NCBI RefSeq assembly: GCF_017358165.1 | Contig: NZ_CP071446.1 | Coordinates: 1,426,001-1,490,000 of the forward strand | DNA from: Thermosipho ferrireducens | GTDB lineage: Bacteria; Thermotogota; Thermotogae; Thermotogales; Fervidobacteriaceae | Length of the DNA stretch: 64,000 nt | Direction: 5' to 3' | Part shown: piece after piece, positions 1-64,000 of the stretch | How positions within the stretch are numbered: position 1 is the stretch's first letter | How the letters are laid out: each line of letters starts with the position of its first letter | The notes under the pieces: model-generated | Told to the model about the DNA's origin: nothing | The model's input: the letters and a program-made list of their open reading frames with translations, nothing else | The model's database searches: none | Made by a program: the position numbers and the translations under genes

Positions 1-42
1 TTTGTATGTTATAATTTTTGTGGATTGAAAAGTCCATACCTC

Positions 43-195
43 CCTTTTCACGATTATGGGAAGCCGGTGAGAATCCGGCGCGGGGACGCCACCGTGACCG
101 GGGACGAAAGCCACATGAATGCCACTGGGCAAAGGTGCCTGGGAAGGCGTGGTGAGTAGGATGATCCGGAAGCCGGGAGACCTGTCGTGAAAAGG
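43..195 (+). promoter_or_regulatory. Cobalamin (B12) riboswitch upstream of btuF
   Basis: This leader RNA should bind adenosylcobalamin and switch off the btuFC operon. The sequence shows the conserved core 'GAAGCCGGTGAGAATCCGGC' (60-79), a 'GCCACTGGG' segment near 121, and the B12-box-like 'AGCCGGGAGACCTGTCG' (171-187). The outer P1 helix is explicit: CCTTTTCACGA at 43-53 is perfectly complementary to TCGTGAAAAGG at 185-195. A TATAAT at 10-15 could be its -10 element; the -35 would lie outside the window. The expression platform is the hairpin at 203-227. Confidence 0.95.
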
Positions 196-202
196 AAGGA
201 AC

Positions 203-240
203 CCACCTTTACGGTCCCTAAAGGTGGTTATTACTGTTTT
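203..240 (+). terminator. Riboswitch expression-platform terminator
   Basis: CCACCTTTA (203-211) pairs perfectly with TAAAGGTGG (219-227) around a 7-nt loop and is followed by a T-rich tract. It begins 8 nt after the P1 helix of the cobalamin riboswitch and precedes the btuF RBS (AAGGAGG, 255-261). This is the position expected for ligand-dependent transcription termination. Confidence 0.8.
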
Positions 241-5714: not shown

Positions 5715-6674
5715 ATGAAAAGAATAGCGGTTATGACAAGTGGTGGAGATGCCCCTGGTATGAATGCAGCAGTAAGGGCAGTTGTAAGATACGCTGTTAA
5801 CAAAGGACTGGAGATTTATGGAATTAGAAGAGGGTACGCGGGATTGCTTGACGAGGATTTTATTCCATTGAATTTTGCGTCTGTTGGGGGAATAATGGAA
5901 AAAGGAGGAACAGTTTTAAGGAGTAGTAGATGTCCTGAATTTGTTAGAAAAGAGACAAGAGCCGAGGCTGCAAGCATATTAAAGAAGCATAATATAGAGG
6001 GATTGATAGTCATTGGGGGAGAAGGTAGTTTACATGGAGCAATGTTTTTAGAAGAAGAGCAGAAAGTTCCCGTTGTTGGTATTCCGGGTACTATTGATAA
6101 TGACATAGCAATGACAGATATGAGTATAGGTGTAGATACGTGTTTAAATACAGTAGTTGATGCTATTCAGAAACTAAAAGATACAGCATCTTCACATGAA
6201 AGGGCTTTTATTGTTGAGGTAATGGGAAGAACATCAGGATACATTGCAACTGTATCGGGGCTTGTAACTGGCGCGGAAGCTGTTGTAATCCCAGAAGTTC
6301 CAGTTAATTACGAGGCACTTGCTAATAAAATTTTAAGAGAGAGAGAAAGAGGGAAAATAAATTGTATAGTCGTTGTTGCAGAAGGCGCAGCAAGTGCATA
6401 TACGGTTGCAAGACATCTTGAACACAGAATAGGTTACGAAACACGTATAACCATTCTTGGTCACATTCAAAGAGGAGGTTCGCCTACAGCCTTTGATAGA
6501 CTACTTGCTTCTCGAATGGGAGTCGCTGCTGTTGAAAATTTAACTCGAGGACAAAGTTTTGTTATGATGGCTTTGCAGGGAGGAAAAATAGTCCCGGTAA
6601 AACTTGATGAAGTGTTGAAACAGAAAAAAGGTTTAAACATGGAGCTTGTAGAACTTGCGGCTCTATTGTCATGA
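5715..6674 (+). CDS. pfkA: ATP-dependent 6-phosphofructokinase
   Basis: Glycolytic phosphorylation of fructose 6-phosphate. Length is 319 aa, exactly that of the bacterial PfkA family. Visible signatures are '[15 protein letters not shown]' (nucleotide binding), 'GTIDNDI' (catalytic loop), '[15 protein letters not shown]' and '[14 protein letters not shown]' (sugar-phosphate/effector contacts). ATG 5715 follows AAAGGAGG (5701-5708) with ideal spacing; an in-frame TTG at 5697 would add six residues and precedes the RBS. The stop overlaps the next gene's ATG (ATGA), an uncommon partner since pyruvate kinase is the more usual neighbour. Confidence 0.97.
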
Positions 6675-7975
6675 GTATCAGAATAAAGAACGCAAAAGTT
6701 TGGAACGGAAGAAATTTTGAGAAAAAAGATTTATATATAAATTCTGAAGGGATTTTTGTAAGTTTCCTGAAAGAAGAAGAAATCAGGAAAAGTATTGATC
6801 TGGAAAGTTTTTATGTTTTTCCAGGGTTTGTAGATTCTCATGCACATGTTTTGGGTGTGGGGATAAAAAAACTTATAAAAAATCTGGAAGGGGATTTTGT
6901 AAATGAAATTTTAAAAACAGAAGAATCAATAATAGTGGGTCGTGGATGGTCAAAATTACCAGATAATATTAATAAGTTATTGGATTTTGATAGACCAGTT
7001 ATTCTTATAAGAAGATGCGGACATGTTGCGTGGATTAATAATAAGGCAAAAAATCTTCTAAAGTTGAAAGAAAACATGATTTTTGAAAATGAGTTAGAAA
7101 AAATATGGAGTTTATTACCGGAGGATTTCTATGAGTATGCTTTTAAACTTGGAGAGAAACAATTTTTAAAGAGTGGGGTTACATGTGTTCATTCAGACGA
7201 TTTTCATGGAATATCTTTTGAAACTTTAAAAAAGTTGTTATCACGTAGTGAAATAAGAATTTATGAGAAATTGTACACAGACAGACCCTGGGATTATGAA
7301 TATGGAAATTATGGAATTTCTGAGATATTTGGAATAAAAATATTTGCAGATGGTTCATTGGGTGGAAAAACTGCTTTCCTTTCAAAACCATATAAAGGTT
7401 CTGAAAATAGTGGGGTCAATACTTTACCACATAATTTTAGTAAAATAATAGATTTTGCTGATAGAAATGGGTTACAGGTTTGTGTTCATGCGATTGGAGA
7501 TCAGGCAGTAACAGAAGTTCTTAACGCTTTTGGAAGAAGTTATGGTCATAGAATAATACACGCGCAAATAATAAAGAAAGCCGACTTTGAAAGATTAAAA
7601 AACTTTGTATTTTCTATTCAGCCTCATTTTTATTTTGAAGATTTACCGTTGCTTGAGAATATCCAGGATGGTGAGTATTTGTTATACCCTTTTTTCGAAA
7701 TGTATAGAAAAAATATAGATATAGCTTTTTCAACAGATTCACCTGTTTCACCAGAAAATCCCTGGTATGTTATTCAGTCGGCGGTGAAAATGGGATTTTC
7801 ATTAGAAGATTCTATAAAACTTTATACCGAGCACGGTGGAAAAATTATCGATAAACCTATTGGAAAAATTTCACCTGGTTATTATGCAGATTTTGTAGTT
7901 TATGAAAAGCAATTTTATAGTACTCCTAAAGCAGTTTTTGTAGGAGGAAAGCAGGTTTTTGGTGAGAAATTATAA
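6671..7975 (+). CDS. Amidohydrolase family protein (YtcJ-like)
   Basis: Predicted metal-dependent hydrolase of the amidohydrolase superfamily, 434 aa, cytosolic. The metal site is suggested by '[11 protein letters not shown]' (HxH), '[11 protein letters not shown]', 'IIHAQI' and 'FSTDSPVSP'; the C-terminal '[12 protein letters not shown]' is the usual beta-sandwich return. A family-typical 'ADGSLGG' occurs mid-protein. It is shorter than the roughly 530 residues common for YtcJ, mainly through shorter insertions. It is translationally coupled to pfkA (ATGA). The substrate is unknown; nothing nearby suggests one. Confidence 0.85.
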
Positions 7976-9546: not shown

Positions 9547-10488
9547 ATGGTTTTTTTGTGGTTGGTCCTGGGAATGATTTTATTGATCAAAGGTGCAGAT
9601 TGGCTTGTTGAAGGAGCCGTTTCTATAGCTTTAAATTTAGGAGTTTCCAAGCTAATAGTAGGGCTTTCAGTTGTAGCTTTTGGGACATCAATTCCCGAGC
9701 TTGTTGCTTCTGTAGTTTCTGTATTAAAAGGTCACTCAAGTGTTTCTATTTCTAATGTTGTGGGAAGCAATGTGGCGAATATTGGGCTTTGTCTGGCTGT
9801 AGGTGTACTTTTTTCCTCTGTTAATATAAGAAAGCAAACAATGAGGATAGAGGTGCCTTTTATGATAATCTCAACATTTGTATTCTTTTCGCTCCTTATA
9901 AGAAACGGTGCTTATTTATTACAATGGAATGATGGAATTGTTTTTCTATCGCTTATGATAGTTTATATATATTACATAGTTACGTCTGCTCGGGATGTTA
10001 TAGAAGAAGAGCTCGAAAGTGAAATAAGGGGTAAGTATAAAACATTAACTTCAGTAATGTTAGTTCTTATTGGAATTGCTGGTGTTTCGTTAGGAGGGGA
10101 ATTAACCATTAGAAATGTTGTGGAAATTGCAAAAATGTTTGGACTCAGTGAAACATTTGTTGGTTTAACAATAGTTGCCATTGGAACTTCGCTTCCTGAA
10201 TTAGTTGTAAGCATAACTTCCATTGTAAAGGGAGAAGGCGATATTTTAGTGGGTAATATAGTAGGAAGTAACATATTCAATATTCTTCTTATCCTTGGTA
10301 TTAGCTCTCTTATTGGCAACCTTACTGTCGATGTGCGTGGTTATTATATAGATTTGTTTGTAATGATAGGGATTGCGCTTTTACTATTAATATTTTCTTT
10401 TACCAGGAGAAAACTCACACGTGTAGAAGGAATACTGCTTTTGAGTATTTACATTACGTATATTTTATACGTATTCCAGAGAAAATAA
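9547..10488 (+). CDS. CaCA-family Na+/Ca2+ exchanger (YrbG-like)
   Basis: Membrane cation exchanger, 313 aa with about ten hydrophobic segments. The two alpha repeats that form the ion site are clear: 'AFGTSIPELVASVVSVLKG' with 'SNVVGSNVANIGL' near the N-terminus, and 'AIGTSLPELVVSITSIVKG' with 'GNIVGSNIFNILL' in the second half. It is co-directional and 12 nt after the ArsB/NhaD-like gene, and 17 nt before guaB. Whether it prefers Ca2+ over K+ or another cation cannot be judged. Confidence 0.9.
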   Translation: MVFLWLVLGMILLIKGADWLVEGAVSIALNLGVSKLIVGLSVVAFGTSIPELVASVVSVLKGHSSVSISNVVGSNVANIGLCLAVGVLFSSVNIRKQTMRIEVPFMIISTFVFFSLLIRNGAYLLQWNDGIVFLSLMIVYIYYIVTSARDVIEEELESEIRGKYKTLTSVMLVLIGIAGVSLGGELTIRNVVEIAKMFGLSETFVGLTIVAIGTSLPELVVSITSIVKGEGDILVGNIVGSNIFNILLILGISSLIGNLTVDVRGYYIDLFVMIGIALLLLIFSFTRRKLTRVEGILLLSIYITYILYVFQRK

Positions 10489-10499
10489 GTAGGAGGTAA

Positions 10500-11957
<1,458 letters not shown>

Positions 11958-58344: not shown

Positions 58345-58372
58345 TTGACATAAGGGTATATTTTGTTAAAAT
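58345..58372 (+). promoter_or_regulatory. Promoter of the methionine operon leader
   Basis: TTGACA (58345-58350), a 16-nt spacer and TAAAAT (58367-58372), 25 nt before the leader-peptide ATG. Confidence 0.75.
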
Positions 58373-58396
58373 AAGGGAAAATATAGGAGGGGTTGT

Positions 58397-58510
58397 ATGA
58401 TAACGGGTGATATAAAACTTAAAGTGAAAAGTCTAATTAATTTCAATGTTAATATGATGATAATGTGCGGCGAGTTTGATAACTGGCCGCAGTTGTTGCT
58501 ATGTTATTAA
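58397..58510 (+). CDS. Met-rich leader peptide (37 aa) of the methionine operon
   Basis: Encodes MITGDIKLKVKSLINFNVN, then MMIMCGEF, then DNWPQLLLCY. The RBS AGGAGGGG (58386-58393) is strong. Met codons cluster at 58454-58459 and 58463-58465 (ATG ATG ATA ATG), immediately before the first attenuator arm. The peptide has no recognisable domain and lies between a good promoter and a terminator, followed by aspartokinase and methionine-synthesis genes. This placement is that of a translated leader controlling attenuation. Confidence 0.75.
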   Translation: MITGDIKLKVKSLINFNVNMMIMCGEFDNWPQLLLCY

Positions 58511-58570
58511 AGTAAGCCATTTGTATAATGAGAAGCGGCCAGTGAGAATTATGGCCGCTTTTTTTTTTTA
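58466..58570 (+). terminator. Ribosome-mediated attenuator of the methionine operon
   Basis: Four arms are visible. Protector TGCGGC (58466-58471) pairs with GCCGCA (58486-58491). Antiterminator CTGGCCGC (58483-58490) pairs perfectly with GCGGCCAG (58535-58542). Terminator AAGCGGCCA (58533-58541) pairs perfectly with TGGCCGCTT (58552-58560), followed by a run of T. The protector begins directly after the last clustered Met codon, so a ribosome stalled there would mask it, free the antiterminator and prevent termination. The aspartokinase start lies 15-25 nt downstream. Confidence 0.78.
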
Positions 58571-58584
58571 AGGGGGTGAGTGAT

Positions 58585-59733
58585 TTGAAAATTGTAAAGT
58601 TTGGTGGTTCTGTGTTCAAAGATGAAAATTCTTTTAATTCAATTTTGAAATTGCTCGATGATAGTAAAACAGTGATTATTGTGTCAGCACCTTTTGGAAT
58701 CACAGATAGACTTAAAGAAAATGCTATATCCAGTGAATTTTTATTGATGATGTACAGGCGTTTCAAGCAATTATTAGGTTTTGATTCAAGTGTTTTAAAA
58801 CAGAGGGTATTTGAAATTGAGTGTGAAAAAAATTTTGAGAAAATTTTATCGCATGGGGAAAGGTGTAATTCACTTGCACTTAAATTGTTTCTTGAGAAAA
58901 AAGGATTTGATGTGGAGGAAATACTACCTGAAAATATAAATTTTTCACTGACAGAATACGGTGAATTTAATTTGGATCAAAAGATTAGCAAATTTTTTGA
59001 AGAAGAAAAAACGTATATTGTACCTGGTTTTTACGGAGTTTTTAATGGTCAGATAAAAACAATAGGAAGAGGGGGAAGTGATTACACAGCGACTGCTATT
59101 GCATATTTATTAGATTCTAAAGAAGTAATTCTTTATAAGGATGTGAGCTCAGTCTTCTCATGTGATCCAAAAATTGTTAAAAATTCTGTTCCGATAACAA
59201 AAATTTCTTATGAAGTAGCAGAGCTTTTATCGTATTTTGGAGCTAAGGTTATTAACTATAAAGCTATAAAACCAGCAAAATTAAAGGATATTAATGTCAA
59301 AATAAAAAGTGTAGATAGTGAATCTTTTACACTTATTTCAAAGGAAATGGACTTAAATGTTTTTTCCATAAGTTATTTAGAAAGTTTAATATTGATAAAA
59401 GGATATATAAAGGAAATTCCGGTAAATGCTAAATATATGGATGTATTTCATAGGAAAGCCTGGATTGTGGCAACTGAAGAACAGGCAAAAGAAATAGAAC
59501 AATGTTTTTATAATCCAGTTTTGATTGGAAATCTTTCCCTTGTTTTTGTTACAGGAAACATTAATATCGAAAAAAAACTTTTAATACTGAATACTTTGTA
59601 TTCTAATAAATGTGATTTTTTTGTTTTAAAAGATGATGAAAAATTCATAATTTTATTGGTGAAAAGAAAGAATGTTAAAGATGCTGTTAATATAATTCAT
59701 AATATTTTATTTGCAAAGGAGGCGGTTGTATGA
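58585..59733 (+). CDS. Aspartokinase
   Basis: Phosphorylates aspartate, the first step toward methionine, threonine and lysine. 382 aa. N-terminal 'KIVKFGGSVFKDENSF' (KFGGxS-type), 'CEKNFEKILSHGERCNSLAL', 'IGRGGSDYTATAIAYLLD' (GRGGSD) and 'KDVSSVFSCDPKIV' are diagnostic. The C-terminal about 130 residues correspond to the ACT regulatory region but are diverged. TTG 58585 is used because AGGGGG ends 8-9 nt upstream and the product starts at MKIVKFGG; GTG 58576 overlaps the RBS. First structural gene behind the Met attenuator, so probably the methionine-dedicated isozyme. Confidence 0.92.
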   Translation: MKIVKFGGSVFKDENSFNSILKLLDDSKTVIIVSAPFGITDRLKENAISSEFLLMMYRRFKQLLGFDSSVLKQRVFEIECEKNFEKILSHGERCNSLALKLFLEKKGFDVEEILPENINFSLTEYGEFNLDQKISKFFEEEKTYIVPGFYGVFNGQIKTIGRGGSDYTATAIAYLLDSKEVILYKDVSSVFSCDPKIVKNSVPITKISYEVAELLSYFGAKVINYKAIKPAKLKDINVKIKSVDSESFTLISKEMDLNVFSISYLESLILIKGYIKEIPVNAKYMDVFHRKAWIVATEEQAKEIEQCFYNPVLIGNLSLVFVTGNINIEKKLLILNTLYSNKCDFFVLKDDEKFIILLVKRKNVKDAVNIIHNILFAKEAVV

Positions 59734-61034
59734 GAAGTTTTGAAGAAATAAATGAAAAAATATCTAAAGGTAAAGTTGTCGTTGTAACGGCAGAAGAGGC
59801 GGTAGAGCTCTCTAAAGAAAAAGGGGTAGATTATGTGTATAGAAATATAGATGTTGTTACTACAGGAACATTTGCCCCTATGTGTTCTTCCGGAGTGTTT
59901 TTTAATTTTGGTCACACGACGCCACCTATGAGAATGGAAGAAATAACGTTAGATGGAGTATTAACCTATGGTGGACTTGCAGCTGTTGATGGTTTTCTTG
60001 GTGTGACACAGGAATTTGAAAAAACAGGCGGAGCGTTTGTTATCGAAAAGCTGATATCGGGAGAGGATGTACTTCTGGAAGCATATGGGAAAGGAACAGA
60101 TTGTTATCCTGGAAAGCATGTGAGGGGCTATATAAACAAGGACATAATTAACGAATTTTACTTTTTTAATCCAAGAAATGTTTACCAAAATTATGCGGCG
60201 GCTACAAATAGTTCAGGACGAATGCTGTATACTTACATGGGGAAATTATTGCCACATTTTGGAAATGTTACGTATGCAACTTCCGGAGAATTAAGTCCAT
60301 TGTTAAAGGATCCACAGTTGGAAACCATTGGCATAGGAACCAAAATCTTTTTTGGAGGAACACATGGTTATGTAGTCTGGAATGGAACACAATTTGCACC
60401 ATCCAATCAAAAAATACCTAAAAGCCCTTCCAGAACACTTGCGGTAATAGGTAATGCAAAGGAAATGTCTGTGGAATATATAAAAGCTGCTCGATTTAAA
60501 AAATATGGTGTTACTATGTTCATAGGAATAGGTATTCCAATTCCTATAATTGATGAGGAAATAGCATATTATGTAACACGTTCAAACGCAGAACTTGTTA
60601 CAACTATAAAAGATTATGGAAAATGTGGAAAACCTGTTTTGAAAGAAGTAACTTTTAAAGAGTTAAGAAGCGGGAGGGTTGAATTATCTGGAAAATCGGT
60701 AAGGACTTCCTCAATTACAAGTTTAAAAATGTCACGAAAGATAGCTAAAATCTTGAAAGAGCAAATTGAAAACAAAGATTTTTACCTCACTAAGCCTGTT
60801 TCTCCCCTTCCCAAAACAGCAGATTACAAAAAATTGTCTGTGAAAAGTACTCCTTCTTCAAAAAAATTGCAAGAGAAAAGATGTATAGAATGTGGACTAT
60901 GTTGCGGATACTGTGATTCAATCGTTATGAAAGACGATAGCATTGAATTTTACAATGGCAAATGCACAAATTGCGGCTTATGTGAAGATGTCTGTCCTGT
61001 TGGCATTAGACTTCCATGGGGGTTATTGAATTGA
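59730..61034 (+). CDS. DUF39 homocysteine biosynthesis protein with C-terminal ferredoxin domain
   Basis: 434-aa protein. The body (about 1-375) is the COG1900/DUF39 family ('VTTGTFAPMCSSGVFFNFGH', 'GKGTDCYPGKHVRGYINK', 'GGTHGYVVWNGTQFAPS'), with conserved cysteines in the first two motifs. The C-terminus adds two 4Fe-4S motifs ('CIECGLCCGYC' and 'CTNCGLCEDVCPVG'). Methanogen homologues are required to make homocysteine from aspartate semialdehyde and sulfide, bypassing homoserine activation. Its position after aspartokinase and before MetF/MetH supports that route here. ATGA overlap with the aspartokinase stop. Confidence 0.92.
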   Translation: MRSFEEINEKISKGKVVVVTAEEAVELSKEKGVDYVYRNIDVVTTGTFAPMCSSGVFFNFGHTTPPMRMEEITLDGVLTYGGLAAVDGFLGVTQEFEKTGGAFVIEKLISGEDVLLEAYGKGTDCYPGKHVRGYINKDIINEFYFFNPRNVYQNYAAATNSSGRMLYTYMGKLLPHFGNVTYATSGELSPLLKDPQLETIGIGTKIFFGGTHGYVVWNGTQFAPSNQKIPKSPSRTLAVIGNAKEMSVEYIKAARFKKYGVTMFIGIGIPIPIIDEEIAYYVTRSNAELVTTIKDYGKCGKPVLKEVTFKELRSGRVELSGKSVRTSSITSLKMSRKIAKILKEQIENKDFYLTKPVSPLPKTADYKKLSVKSTPSSKKLQEKRCIECGLCCGYCDSIVMKDDSIEFYNGKCTNCGLCEDVCPVGIRLPWGLLN

Positions 61035-61726
61035 GGAGATATTATAGAAAATTTATGAATTCTCATTTATTTTCTTTCGTCGTAAAGTATAAAGAAAGTG
61101 ACCTCTGGATAGGTCTGGATAAAACGATTCCAGGACTTCCGCTTATTGTTTATGAATACATAGTAAATCTCAGAAAACAGGTAGAAAGTTATCAAAATCA
61201 ACAATTTTTTGAAAGTTTTACCCCAATTGATTTCGACGAAAAAGCCCCGGACATTGTAAAAGATATGATTCTGGCTTCAAAGAAAGCAAACGTTGGGCCT
61301 ATGGCCGCTGTGGCAGGAGCTTTTGCAAAGTTTATTGGACAATTTATTTTGAAACAGGTTGCACTTGATAAATTGATAGTTGAAAACGGAGGAGATCTTT
61401 ATATTTATTCTTTGGAAGAAACTACCATACATATATTTTCAGGTTCTATAAATTTATTTTTGATTTTACCTCCCGGAGAATTTGGTGTAGCAACATCTTC
61501 TGGGACCATTGGGCACTCAAAAAATTTCGGAAGGACTGATTCAACAACAATAGTTACTCGTGATCCCACACTGTCTGATGCTTATGCTACAGCAATATCT
61601 AACAAAATTAAAAATGTTTATGATGCCAAAATTGTATTAAAGGAGAAATATGAAGATATAGAAGATATAGTGGTAGTTGTTGATAAAACCGTAGTGTTGA
61701 ACTGTTCGCATGAGATAAGGTGGTGA
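61031..61726 (+). CDS. UPF0280 (COG2122, ApbE-like) family protein
   Basis: 231-aa protein. Conserved 'KKANVGPMAAVAGAFAKFIG', 'IVENGGDLYIYS' and 'GVATSSGTIGHSKNFGRTDS' are typical of UPF0280, a relative of ApbE-type flavin transferases. COG2122 has been genetically linked with DUF39 in homocysteine synthesis in methanogens. TTG 61031 overlaps the DUF39 stop (TTGA) with GGGGG as RBS; ATG 61016 would overlap more and has no RBS. The biochemical role is uncertain; it might flavinylate or supply reducing power or sulfur. Confidence 0.88.
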   Translation: MRRYYRKFMNSHLFSFVVKYKESDLWIGLDKTIPGLPLIVYEYIVNLRKQVESYQNQQFFESFTPIDFDEKAPDIVKDMILASKKANVGPMAAVAGAFAKFIGQFILKQVALDKLIVENGGDLYIYSLEETTIHIFSGSINLFLILPPGEFGVATSSGTIGHSKNFGRTDSTTIVTRDPTLSDAYATAISNKIKNVYDAKIVLKEKYEDIEDIVVVVDKTVVLNCSHEIRW

Positions 61727-61730
61727 GATT

Positions 61731-62657
61731 TTGAAGATATCACAAATTGACAAATTTTTTGTGTCTATTGAAATAGTTCCTCCTTTAAGAGGACATAGTA
61801 TTGACCAGATTTATAAAGTGTTGGATAAAATACTTCCTTTTGATCCAGCATTTATCAGTGTTACCAAACATCCACCAGAAATAGAATATTATGAGATAGA
61901 TGGACATATTTTAAAGCTTCCGAAAACAAAAAGACCTGGAACAATAGGGTTAGTTGCAGCAATAAAAATGAAATACAACGTAAATGTTGTTCCGCATATT
62001 ACATGTGCAGGGAATAGTAAGTTTGAGCTGGAAGAAACTTTAATTGATCTTGATTTTTTGGAAATTGACAATATTTTTGTAGTAAGAGGAGATAAATCAA
62101 AAAATGTAGTAAAAAAAGACTGGCAATATGATTATGCATATCAACTTGTCGAACAAATTTCTAATATGAATGCAGGAAAGTATCTTTATCAAAACGCTAA
62201 AAAAACAAATTTTTGTATAGGTGTTGCAGGATATCCTGAAAAGCATTTCGAATCTCCAAATATATTGGAAGATATAAAATGTTTAAAGAAAAAAATTGAT
62301 TCTGGTGCAAAGTTTGTAATAACTCAAATGTTTTTTGATGAAAATAAATATATATCTTTTGTAAAAAAATTGAGAGAACAAAATATAAATGTTCCAGTAA
62401 TACCGGGATTAAAACCAATTACAAAATTCAAAAGTGCTTTGAAACTACCGGGAAAATTTTACATAGACATTCCTGAAAAGCTATTAAAACAGTTAAGTGA
62501 GGCAAAAACGGAAAAAGAAGAATTTTTGGTTGGGGTTAAGTATATGTTGAGAATGATAGAAAATTTAGTAGATTTTGGAATACCAGGTATTCACTTTTTC
62601 ACAATGAGTAAAACAGATGCCATTGTTGAAATATTAAGAAATATTCAGGGGTGTTAA
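61731..62657 (+). CDS. metF: 5,10-methylenetetrahydrofolate reductase
   Basis: 308-aa TIM-barrel flavoenzyme supplying methyl-THF for methionine synthase. Family motifs: 'FFVSIEIVPPLRG', 'FISVTKHPPE', 'VVPHITCAGNSKFELEETLI', 'NIFVVRGDKS', 'IGVAGYPEKHFESP', 'GAKFVITQMFFDENKYISFV' and 'VPVIPGLKPI'. It starts with TTG 61731 after AAGGTGGTGA. The neighbouring MetH genes and the shared leader fix its role in methionine synthesis. Confidence 0.95.
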   Translation: MKISQIDKFFVSIEIVPPLRGHSIDQIYKVLDKILPFDPAFISVTKHPPEIEYYEIDGHILKLPKTKRPGTIGLVAAIKMKYNVNVVPHITCAGNSKFELEETLIDLDFLEIDNIFVVRGDKSKNVVKKDWQYDYAYQLVEQISNMNAGKYLYQNAKKTNFCIGVAGYPEKHFESPNILEDIKCLKKKIDSGAKFVITQMFFDENKYISFVKKLREQNINVPVIPGLKPITKFKSALKLPGKFYIDIPEKLLKQLSEAKTEKEEFLVGVKYMLRMIENLVDFGIPGIHFFTMSKTDAIVEILRNIQGC

Positions 62658-62660
62658 AAG

Positions 62661-63200
62661 ATGACTTACCTTCCAAATGATATAGAGTTTATGCCATCAA
62701 AAAAGATGATTTTTGCACGGCTTGGTGTCAGATATAAAAATGTGGATCAATATTTTAACAAAAAAGTGAATGATATATATGTTGAAGGTATGAAATATTC
62801 AAAACCTAAGGTTTGGTGGAAAATATTTGACAGAGTACCTGAATCAATTATGCCAGAAGAATTTTCTGGAGTAAAAAAGATAGTTGTTTTTGTTTCTACT
62901 CTTGGCAAACATATAGACGTAAGGATAGATAAATATATGAAAAACAATGAAATTCTTAATGGAACTATTTTAGATGCATGGGCTTCAGAAGCTTTAGAAG
63001 CTTTGAATGAGTCATTTGATATAAGGTTGAGACATATGTTTGGAGAAGGAACCAGAAGATTTTCTCCTGGTTATGGCAATGTAGATATAAGGGAGAATAA
63101 AACAGTTATTAGGCTTATGAAAATAGAAAGTATAAAAGTTTTTGAGAGTGGAGTAATGATTCCCAGGAAAACTACAACATGTATGATAGGGTGGTGGTGA
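62661..63200 (+). CDS. Stand-alone MetH reactivation (AdoMet-binding) domain protein
   Basis: 179-aa protein equivalent to the C-terminal activation domain of cobalamin-dependent methionine synthase. The signature 'RRFSPGYGNVDIRENKTV' (RxxPGYG) and the ending 'ESGVMIPRKTTTCMIGWW' are diagnostic. The domain binds AdoMet and reductively remethylates inactive cob(II)alamin. In Thermotoga maritima this domain is likewise a separate gene (TM0269) beside metH. It precedes metH by 2 nt. Confidence 0.93.
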   Translation: MTYLPNDIEFMPSKKMIFARLGVRYKNVDQYFNKKVNDIYVEGMKYSKPKVWWKIFDRVPESIMPEEFSGVKKIVVFVSTLGKHIDVRIDKYMKNNEILNGTILDAWASEALEALNESFDIRLRHMFGEGTRRFSPGYGNVDIRENKTVIRLMKIESIKVFESGVMIPRKTTTCMIGWW

Positions 63201-63202
63201 TT

Positions 63203-64000
63203 TTGACAAGAAAAGAATTTTTAGGGCTTTTGAATGAAAGAATACACTATCTTGATGGTGCATATGGTACGGAATTTTTTAGATCTGGTTTTAAGGGAGT
63301 TATAGAAATTTTAAATATTGAAAATAAAGAAATGGTTTACTCATTACAAAAAGCTTATGTAGAGGCAGGTGTTGATTTTTTGTTAACAAATACTTTTAGT
63401 GCAAACAGGTTAAAACTTGAAACATTAAAAGTGAATTATGATTTAAGGGATATAAATTATAACGCGGTGAAAATTGCAAAAATGGCTGCAGCAAATAAAA
63501 ACGTTTACATACTTGGAGATATTTCGTCAACGGGACATTTTATAAAACCATTTGGGGAAATTTCTTTTAATGAAGCGTATGATGTTTTTAAAGAGCAATC
63601 AGAAATTTTATTAAATGCGGGAGTTGACGGTTTTATAATAGAAACTATCTCAGATTTGAAAGAATTAAAAGCTGCTATTCTGGCTATTAGAGATCTTGAC
63701 GATGACATACCTATAATTGCCCACATGACGTTTAATAAAAATGGAGTTTCCGTTACGGGAACAAGCGTTGAGATTTTTGTCACTCTTTTAAATGATCTGG
63801 ATGTTGATGTTATAGGTACAAATTGTACACTTGCTCCCGAAGAATTAGTACCTGTTTTTAAAAAGATTTCTGAGTATTCAAAGAAGCCTGTAAGCGTTGA
63901 ACCAAATGCAGGAAAACCAAGACTTCAGAGAGATGGAAGTGTTATTTACAAAGTTTCCAGGGAAAGATTCGCAATTTGTATGGAAGATTTCATCGAAATG
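63203..64000 (+). CDS. metH: Cobalamin-dependent methionine synthase (partial, cut by window end)
   Basis: The first 266 residues of the homocysteine S-methyltransferase domain. 'RIHYLDGAYGTEFFRSGF', 'GVDFLLTNTFSANRLKLE', 'GDISSTGHF', 'GVDGFIIETISDLKELKAAI' and 'VDVIGTNCTLAPEELVPVFK', the last with the first zinc-ligand cysteine (G-x-N-C). The frame stays open to the last base of the window. TTG 63203 follows GGTGGTGA like metF; GTG 63197 is the alternative. Since the reactivation domain is separate, the full protein should lack it. It needs cobalamin, linking it to btuFC at the start of the window. Confidence 0.93.
   Translation, partial: MTRKEFLGLLNERIHYLDGAYGTEFFRSGFKGVIEILNIENKEMVYSLQKAYVEAGVDFLLTNTFSANRLKLETLKVNYDLRDINYNAVKIAKMAAANKNVYILGDISSTGHFIKPFGEISFNEAYDVFKEQSEILLNAGVDGFIIETISDLKELKAAILAIRDLDDDIPIIAHMTFNKNGVSVTGTSVEIFVTLLNDLDVDVIGTNCTLAPEELVPVFKKISEYSKKPVSVEPNAGKPRLQRDGSVIYKVSRERFAICMEDFIEM

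Follow-up and report, generated by a model that had tools for sequence, protein, structure and literature searches.

A probable methionine-codon leader-peptide attenuator ahead of methionine operons and importers in Thermotogota

The window analysed here is a 64 000-nt stretch of the Thermosipho ferrireducens genome (G000), and its last part carries a six-gene operon that forms a route from aspartate to methionine. An aspartate-to-methionine operon had been proposed at this place from the sequence alone, and domain matches to an aspartokinase-like protein, HcyS, MetF and MetH, the last cut by the window end, bore this out (Table 1). Of the two possible starts of the aspartokinase gene, comparison with relatives indicates that the TTG codon is probably the one in use. 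The same genome encodes a second MetH (G000:C1:1571656-1572447, minus strand, locus L211), which shares 62 % identity with the first across the compared part; neither a Met leader nor an Rfam riboswitch was found in the stretch fetched for this locus. At the threshold applied, Met leaders were absent from MetH loci apart from the HcyS operon, in Fervidobacterium, family f3 and others (family labels f1–f11 were assigned by the search tool).

The region between the promoter-like element and the operon contains a short ORF with a Shine–Dalgarno sequence, a cluster of in-frame Met codons, a protector arm, an antiterminator strand and an intrinsic terminator. The sequence-only reading had listed these elements, and on direct reading all of its coordinates were correct. 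The intrinsic terminator lies ahead of the first structural gene, as is expected of a ribosome-mediated attenuator. The leader folds better than all of 200 dinucleotide shuffles (z = -4.0) and is present once in the genome. At the Met frequency of the window, three or more Met in four codons are expected about 0.001 times per 37-codon ORF. Of the three stems, the protector TGCGGC/GCCGCA is the weakest in the window, since its pairing meets competition from a rival hairpin before the terminator forms.

Table 1. Features of the leader and operon in the window, with the tandem arrangement of two f10 genomes
Feature	Position	Strand	Evidence
Promoter-like TTGACA-16-TAAAAT (-35 58345-58350, spacer 16 nt, -10 58367-58372)	58345..58372	+	Sequence; core TTTGTTAAAAT invariant in four genomes
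Shine–Dalgarno AGGAGGGG of leader ORF	58385..58392	+	Duplex -10.7 kcal/mol
Leader ORF, 37 codons, MITGDIKLKVKSLINFNVNMMIMCGEFDNWPQLLLCY	58397..58510	+	Stop TAA 58508-58510; counterparts in relatives
Regulatory codons ATG ATG ATA ATG, in frame	58454..58465	+	12/12 identical in genus g4; Met clusters in all lineages
Protector 5' arm TGCGGC	58466..58471	+	Partner GCCGCA 58487-58492; paired in whole-leader fold; competing hairpin exists
Antiterminator strand CTGGCCGC	58483..58490	+	8/8 identical in four genomes; duplex p=0.024
Intrinsic terminator AAGCGGCCA 58533-58541 / TGGCCGCTT 58552-58560, T run to 58569	58533..58569	+	
Antiterminator partner GCGGCCAG	58535-58542		Within terminator 5' arm
Aspartokinase-like gene	58576..59733	+	PF00696; start TTG 58585 (favoured) or GTG 58576
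HcyS/HcyBio (DUF39) homocysteine synthase with ferredoxin domain	59730..61034	+	PF01837 6.9e-128
UPF0280-like protein (PRK04334 group)	61016..61726	+	
Methylenetetrahydrofolate reductase MetF	61731..62657	+	TIGR00676 3.1e-79
Protein with weak MetH activation-domain match	62661..63200	+	PF02965 5e-4, under gathering score
MetH, N-terminal part, runs off window	63179..64000	+	PF02574 2.5e-52
SAM-I riboswitch with second leader-ORF attenuator before aspartokinase-HcyS (G097, G090)	L091 10679-10782 with 10483-10626; L093 7682-8010	-; +	

Comparison of orthologous loci within the same family (f1) showed that the leader ORF and its Met codons precede the operon in 12 of the 13 genomes carrying HcyS; the sole exception is G017, in which the operon start differs. 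In genus g4 (G024–G026), whose aspartokinase is 54–58 % identical to that of the window, ATGATGATAATG is conserved at 12 of 12 positions and CTGGCCGC at 8 of 8, the promoter core TTTGTTAAAAT is kept and the stems are similar. Genera g2 and g3 have stems of other sequence, comprising a protector GGYGTACC/GGTAYRCC, an antiterminator strand CCGACCGnnn and a terminator CGGTCGGGT/ACCCGACCG, and their Met cluster reads ATGATG(GCT or CCT)ATGATGATG. In G014 a likely transposase gene (6190–7407, opposite strand) was observed between the leader with its terminator and the aspartokinase gene (L074 5937–7407).

Of the 103 Thermotogota genomes searched, 41 or more, from eight families, have a leader ORF in which Met codons are clustered, together with an intrinsic terminator and an antiterminator as its alternative. 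This total leaves out one f3 candidate (G034), and the leaders show five or more stem sequences that differ visibly. The leader system is phylum-wide and no peculiarity of the window's genome. Among the fetched loci, which were chosen for met genes and amount to 3.3 Mb counting both strands, all short ORFs with at least three Met in four codons and a terminator 20–160 nt downstream were such leaders before methionine genes.

For methionine-synthesis operons, leaders were present in six families besides f1. Those of f2 genus g9 (G008–G011) encode MIM and precede MetH-activation/MetH/aspartokinase/HcyS genes, and in f5 (G046) MIM leaders lie before HcyS and again before metQNI. Leaders of the YMMMR type occur in f7 (G050, G051). 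In f8, which includes a genome labelled Mesoaciditogaceae (G058), SMMM and DMMM leaders precede aspartokinase or HcyS, and a MIM leader precedes metF-metH in G060. An MNMWM leader lies before aspartokinase-HcyS in f10 (G097), and f11 (G100) has an MMNTMMMRMM leader. HcyS is present without such a leader in f2 genera g7 and g8, in G049 and G033 and, as above, in G017.

A single-sequence aspartokinase query found no relatives, and an HcyS alignment scan returned loci mostly from other phyla. Among the latter, leaders were found only on Thermotogota contigs, in an Exilispira MAG (Spirochaetota), where the leader precedes HcyS, and on one contig labelled Acidobacteriota. This contig (JAQURD010000003.1, L101 5404-5497) carries a Thermotogota-like aspartokinase-HcyS operon with the leader ..NLMIMRLNAPRGSPGV, which would reflect either transfer or a mis-binned contig.

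Three further observations concern individual leaders. In G057 (f8; L312 660-818), a well-formed leader and terminator stand before a fetched stretch in which no methionine gene was recognised, possibly an orphan remaining after operon loss. In G034 (L331 958-1117 and 1143-1661), a MIM leader and attenuator-like hairpins precede only one unannotated protein, of 173 aa and with no match in Pfam, a candidate for a new methionine-related gene. In the Met-Ile-Met clusters, the Ile codon is ATA (58460-58462 in the window; also in the leaders of G008–G011, G024–G026 and G046), and yet only 43–60 % of the Ile codons examined were ATA. Leaders retrieved through the ATGATAATG pattern do not bear on this preference, which perhaps comes from common descent.

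A scan of the 103 genomes for ATGATGATG or ATGATAATG followed by TTTTTT at 70–100 nt, with no methionine gene as query, revealed a like architecture before the methionine importer operon metQNI in f5, f9 and f10. The importer leaders of f9 (G062, G067, G069, G071–G077) and f10 (G082–G085, G087) precede an NlpA-lipoprotein/ATPase/permease operon, and none of these genomes had an HcyS match. Example proteins matched PF03180, ABC_tran with the NIL domain PF09383, and BPD_transp_1, as expected of the methionine importer MetQ-MetN-MetI. Many raw pattern matches in AT-rich genomes were random, as judged from control columns, and matches were triaged by eye for hairpins, unblinded, so that the leader count is a lower bound.

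To assess the antiterminator duplex, the stretch from the last Met codon to the terminator was compared with the terminator 5' arm in 38 leaders against 500 dinucleotide shuffles. The duplex was significant (p<0.05) in 31 of the 38, which include close relatives and are therefore not 38 independent tests; that of G000 was the weakest of its group (p=0.024). Compensatory changes in the three stems had been named as a check in the sequence-only reading, and they were seen in the antiterminator. In the Fervidobacterium group, its helix of 11 pairs was 100 % paired in eight sequences, with both sides changed in 4 of the 11 pairs; none of 500 shuffles reached the covariation score, and slid helices were 10–51 % paired. 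Of these four compensated pairs, three are located upstream of the terminator stem and hence are not explained by it. A second stem type is shared by f2, f5, f9 and, more loosely, f7, with antiterminator cells 94 % paired and two compensated pairs, a count reached by 20 of 500 shuffles. For the protector, the alignment of f2, f5, f7 and f9 contained one compensated pair and no significant covariation, and the Fervidobacterium-group protector was left out of the count, its 3' arm having been misaligned by MAFFT. By inspection, most lineages have a hairpin that starts no more than a few bases from the last Met codon, and the Shine–Dalgarno duplex was -6.4 kcal/mol or better in 37 of the 38 leaders.

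On this comparative evidence, the best explanation is very probably a ribosome-mediated transcription attenuator of the trp/his-leader kind with methionine as the regulatory codons. It is based on the parts themselves, their conservation, antiterminator covariation in one lineage, the several kinds of methionine genes downstream and the absence of the usual methionine RNA switches from this genome and its order. The sequence-only reading had reached the same interpretation, which gains from the retained ORF and Met cluster, the antiterminator covariation and the recurrence at metQNI. Its argument that chance was unlikely is strengthened by the low expectation for the Met cluster, the folding score and the scan of the fetched loci, in which all qualifying ORFs preceded methionine genes, and the match between codons and pathway that it pointed out recurs independently ahead of the importer.

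Translation of the ORF, stalling on its Met codons and the regulatory outcome are the predicted steps of this attenuator. RNA polymerase would transcribe the leader with a ribosome following behind. With ample Met-tRNA, the ribosome would clear ATG ATG ATA ATG and come to cover or pass the antiterminator strand, and this strand could also be held in the protector hairpin; with the strand unavailable, the terminator would form and the methionine operon would be off. When charged Met-tRNA is scarce, the ribosome would stall on the Met codons. At the last of these it would cover the protector 5' arm and leave CTGGCCGC free to pair with GCGGCCAG in the terminator 5' arm, and transcription would continue into the aspartokinase, HcyS, MetF and MetH genes.

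The effect of ribosome position was modelled by walking a ribosome footprint along the leader, using equilibrium folding at 37 °C with pairing across the ribosome allowed. In G000, a ribosome placed at the last Met codon gave an antiterminator pairing of 0.70, as against 0.45 for one at the stop codon and 0.64 for the leader without a ribosome. A clearer fall was obtained for G024 and G025 of g4, from 0.94–0.95 to about 0.3–0.4 before the stop codon, and ribosome position had little effect in f7 and f11. Equilibrium folding alone thus gives no strong switch, and the modelled effect in G000 is modest. Because equilibrium energies computed at 37 °C are a poor guide to cotranscriptional kinetics in thermophiles, folding backs the model in direction only.

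RNA control of methionine genes is most often exerted by SAM riboswitches. It is nevertheless very unlikely that the leader is an unrecognised riboswitch that responds to SAM, methionine or some other ligand and acts through the same terminator, with the ORF incidental. The SAM-I riboswitch is used within the phylum, being found in 12 of the 103 Thermotogota genomes, all in f10, and it was found in none of the 45 genomes of the window's order. The leader itself matched no Rfam family, the covariance model of RF00162 included. Furthermore, the Met codons and the pairing logic are kept across lineages whose stem sequences differ, whereas an aptamer should keep its binding core. In two f10 genomes, G097 (riboswitch score 86.1 bits) and G090 (81.2 bits), a SAM-I riboswitch and then a terminator-like hairpin lie just upstream of a second attenuator, in which the Met cluster is kept in G097 and lost in G090 (..KKVLIIGIT) with the stems retained. 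A cobalamin riboswitch was also observed in the window (34-203, 97 bits).

Arrest by the nascent peptide itself together with a ligand, as in leaders of the TnaC or Erm kind, would agree with the residues that f2, f5 and f9 leaders share after the Met cluster (such as MIMCxxAPxxSPGV and MMMYGNALVSSGA). These residues are, however, spelled by stem bases, and the part upstream of the Met cluster, which would occupy the exit tunnel, varies in sequence and length between lineages, which makes arrest even less probable than a riboswitch. The same low probability is given to a merely constitutive terminator that thins transcription beside a chance Met run: intergenic intrinsic terminators are common, but in the scanned loci Met clusters beside terminators stand only ahead of methionine genes, and do so in eight families; the antiterminator also covaries. 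Direct tRNA sensing, by a Met T-box or otherwise, is the least likely of all, since, although Met T-boxes exist in Lactobacillales (PMC3766115) and the g2/g3 leaders contain a vaguely T-box-like GUGGnGUACCGACCG, RF00230 matched none of the 103 Thermotogota genomes (control genomes were positive), the leader is short and its Met codons form a run inside an ORF.

The ribosome-mediated attenuator proposed here shares with the trp, his, thr, leu, ilv and phe attenuators a short ORF with a Shine–Dalgarno sequence, codons for the amino acid of the pathway, antiterminator and terminator hairpins with a putative protector hairpin, and an intrinsic terminator before the operon. It differs from trp/his-type attenuators in that the regulatory amino acid is methionine, the host phylum is Thermotogota, an amino-acid importer is also preceded by it and the stems differ between lineages. 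Methionine genes are usually controlled via SAM, T-boxes or repressors. The SAM-I riboswitch (S-box, RF00162) likewise controls methionine operons by premature termination but binds SAM directly and needs no ORF, and the Met T-box of Lactobacillales likewise reads tRNA-Met charging but senses uncharged tRNA directly, without a ribosome. A 2013 survey that included 11 Thermotogales genomes named amino-acid attenuators for His, Leu, Thr, Trp, Ile/Val and Phe, with methionine not listed (PMC3766115). As of 2010, leader-peptide systems had been described from Proteobacteria and Actinobacteria only, apart from that paper's own Firmicutes his case (PMC2965389). The nearest precedent is a weak proposal, the Met-containing leader peptide metL before metNIQ in Streptomyces lividans (PMC8079986), whose Met residues are sparse and dispersed, whose ORF is transcribed leaderless and which, according to the authors, lacks a typical Rho-independent terminator. 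Comparative genomics also yielded the uORFC-8-2 motif of Rhodobacterales, likewise a candidate for ribosome attenuation in response to a sulfur amino acid, but with Cys codons before cysS (PMC8632094). A Met-specific ribosome-mediated attenuator with terminator and antiterminator was not found in our literature search, which ran largely outside the subscription journals, and outright priority is not claimed.

If correct, this interpretation would add a new attenuator specificity, for Met-tRNA, that is phylum-wide, and would place leader-peptide attenuation in a phylum for which we found no earlier report. It would also account for methionine gene control in those lineages that lack SAM riboswitches, and points to a role in methionine metabolism or transport, broadly taken, of the unannotated protein of G034. 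We consider it reasonably likely that Met-codon attenuation is the main and probably ancestral methionine control of Thermotogota, kept while its stems were replaced and common to biosynthesis and import. In one f10 genome it would be stacked behind a SAM-I riboswitch, with a single transcript sensing both SAM and charged Met-tRNA, and such a tandem leader would constitute a natural two-signal gate. The leaders present a clear case of regulatory logic outliving its sequence, in which the cell probably senses methionine shortage by the speed of the ribosome through the leader frame.
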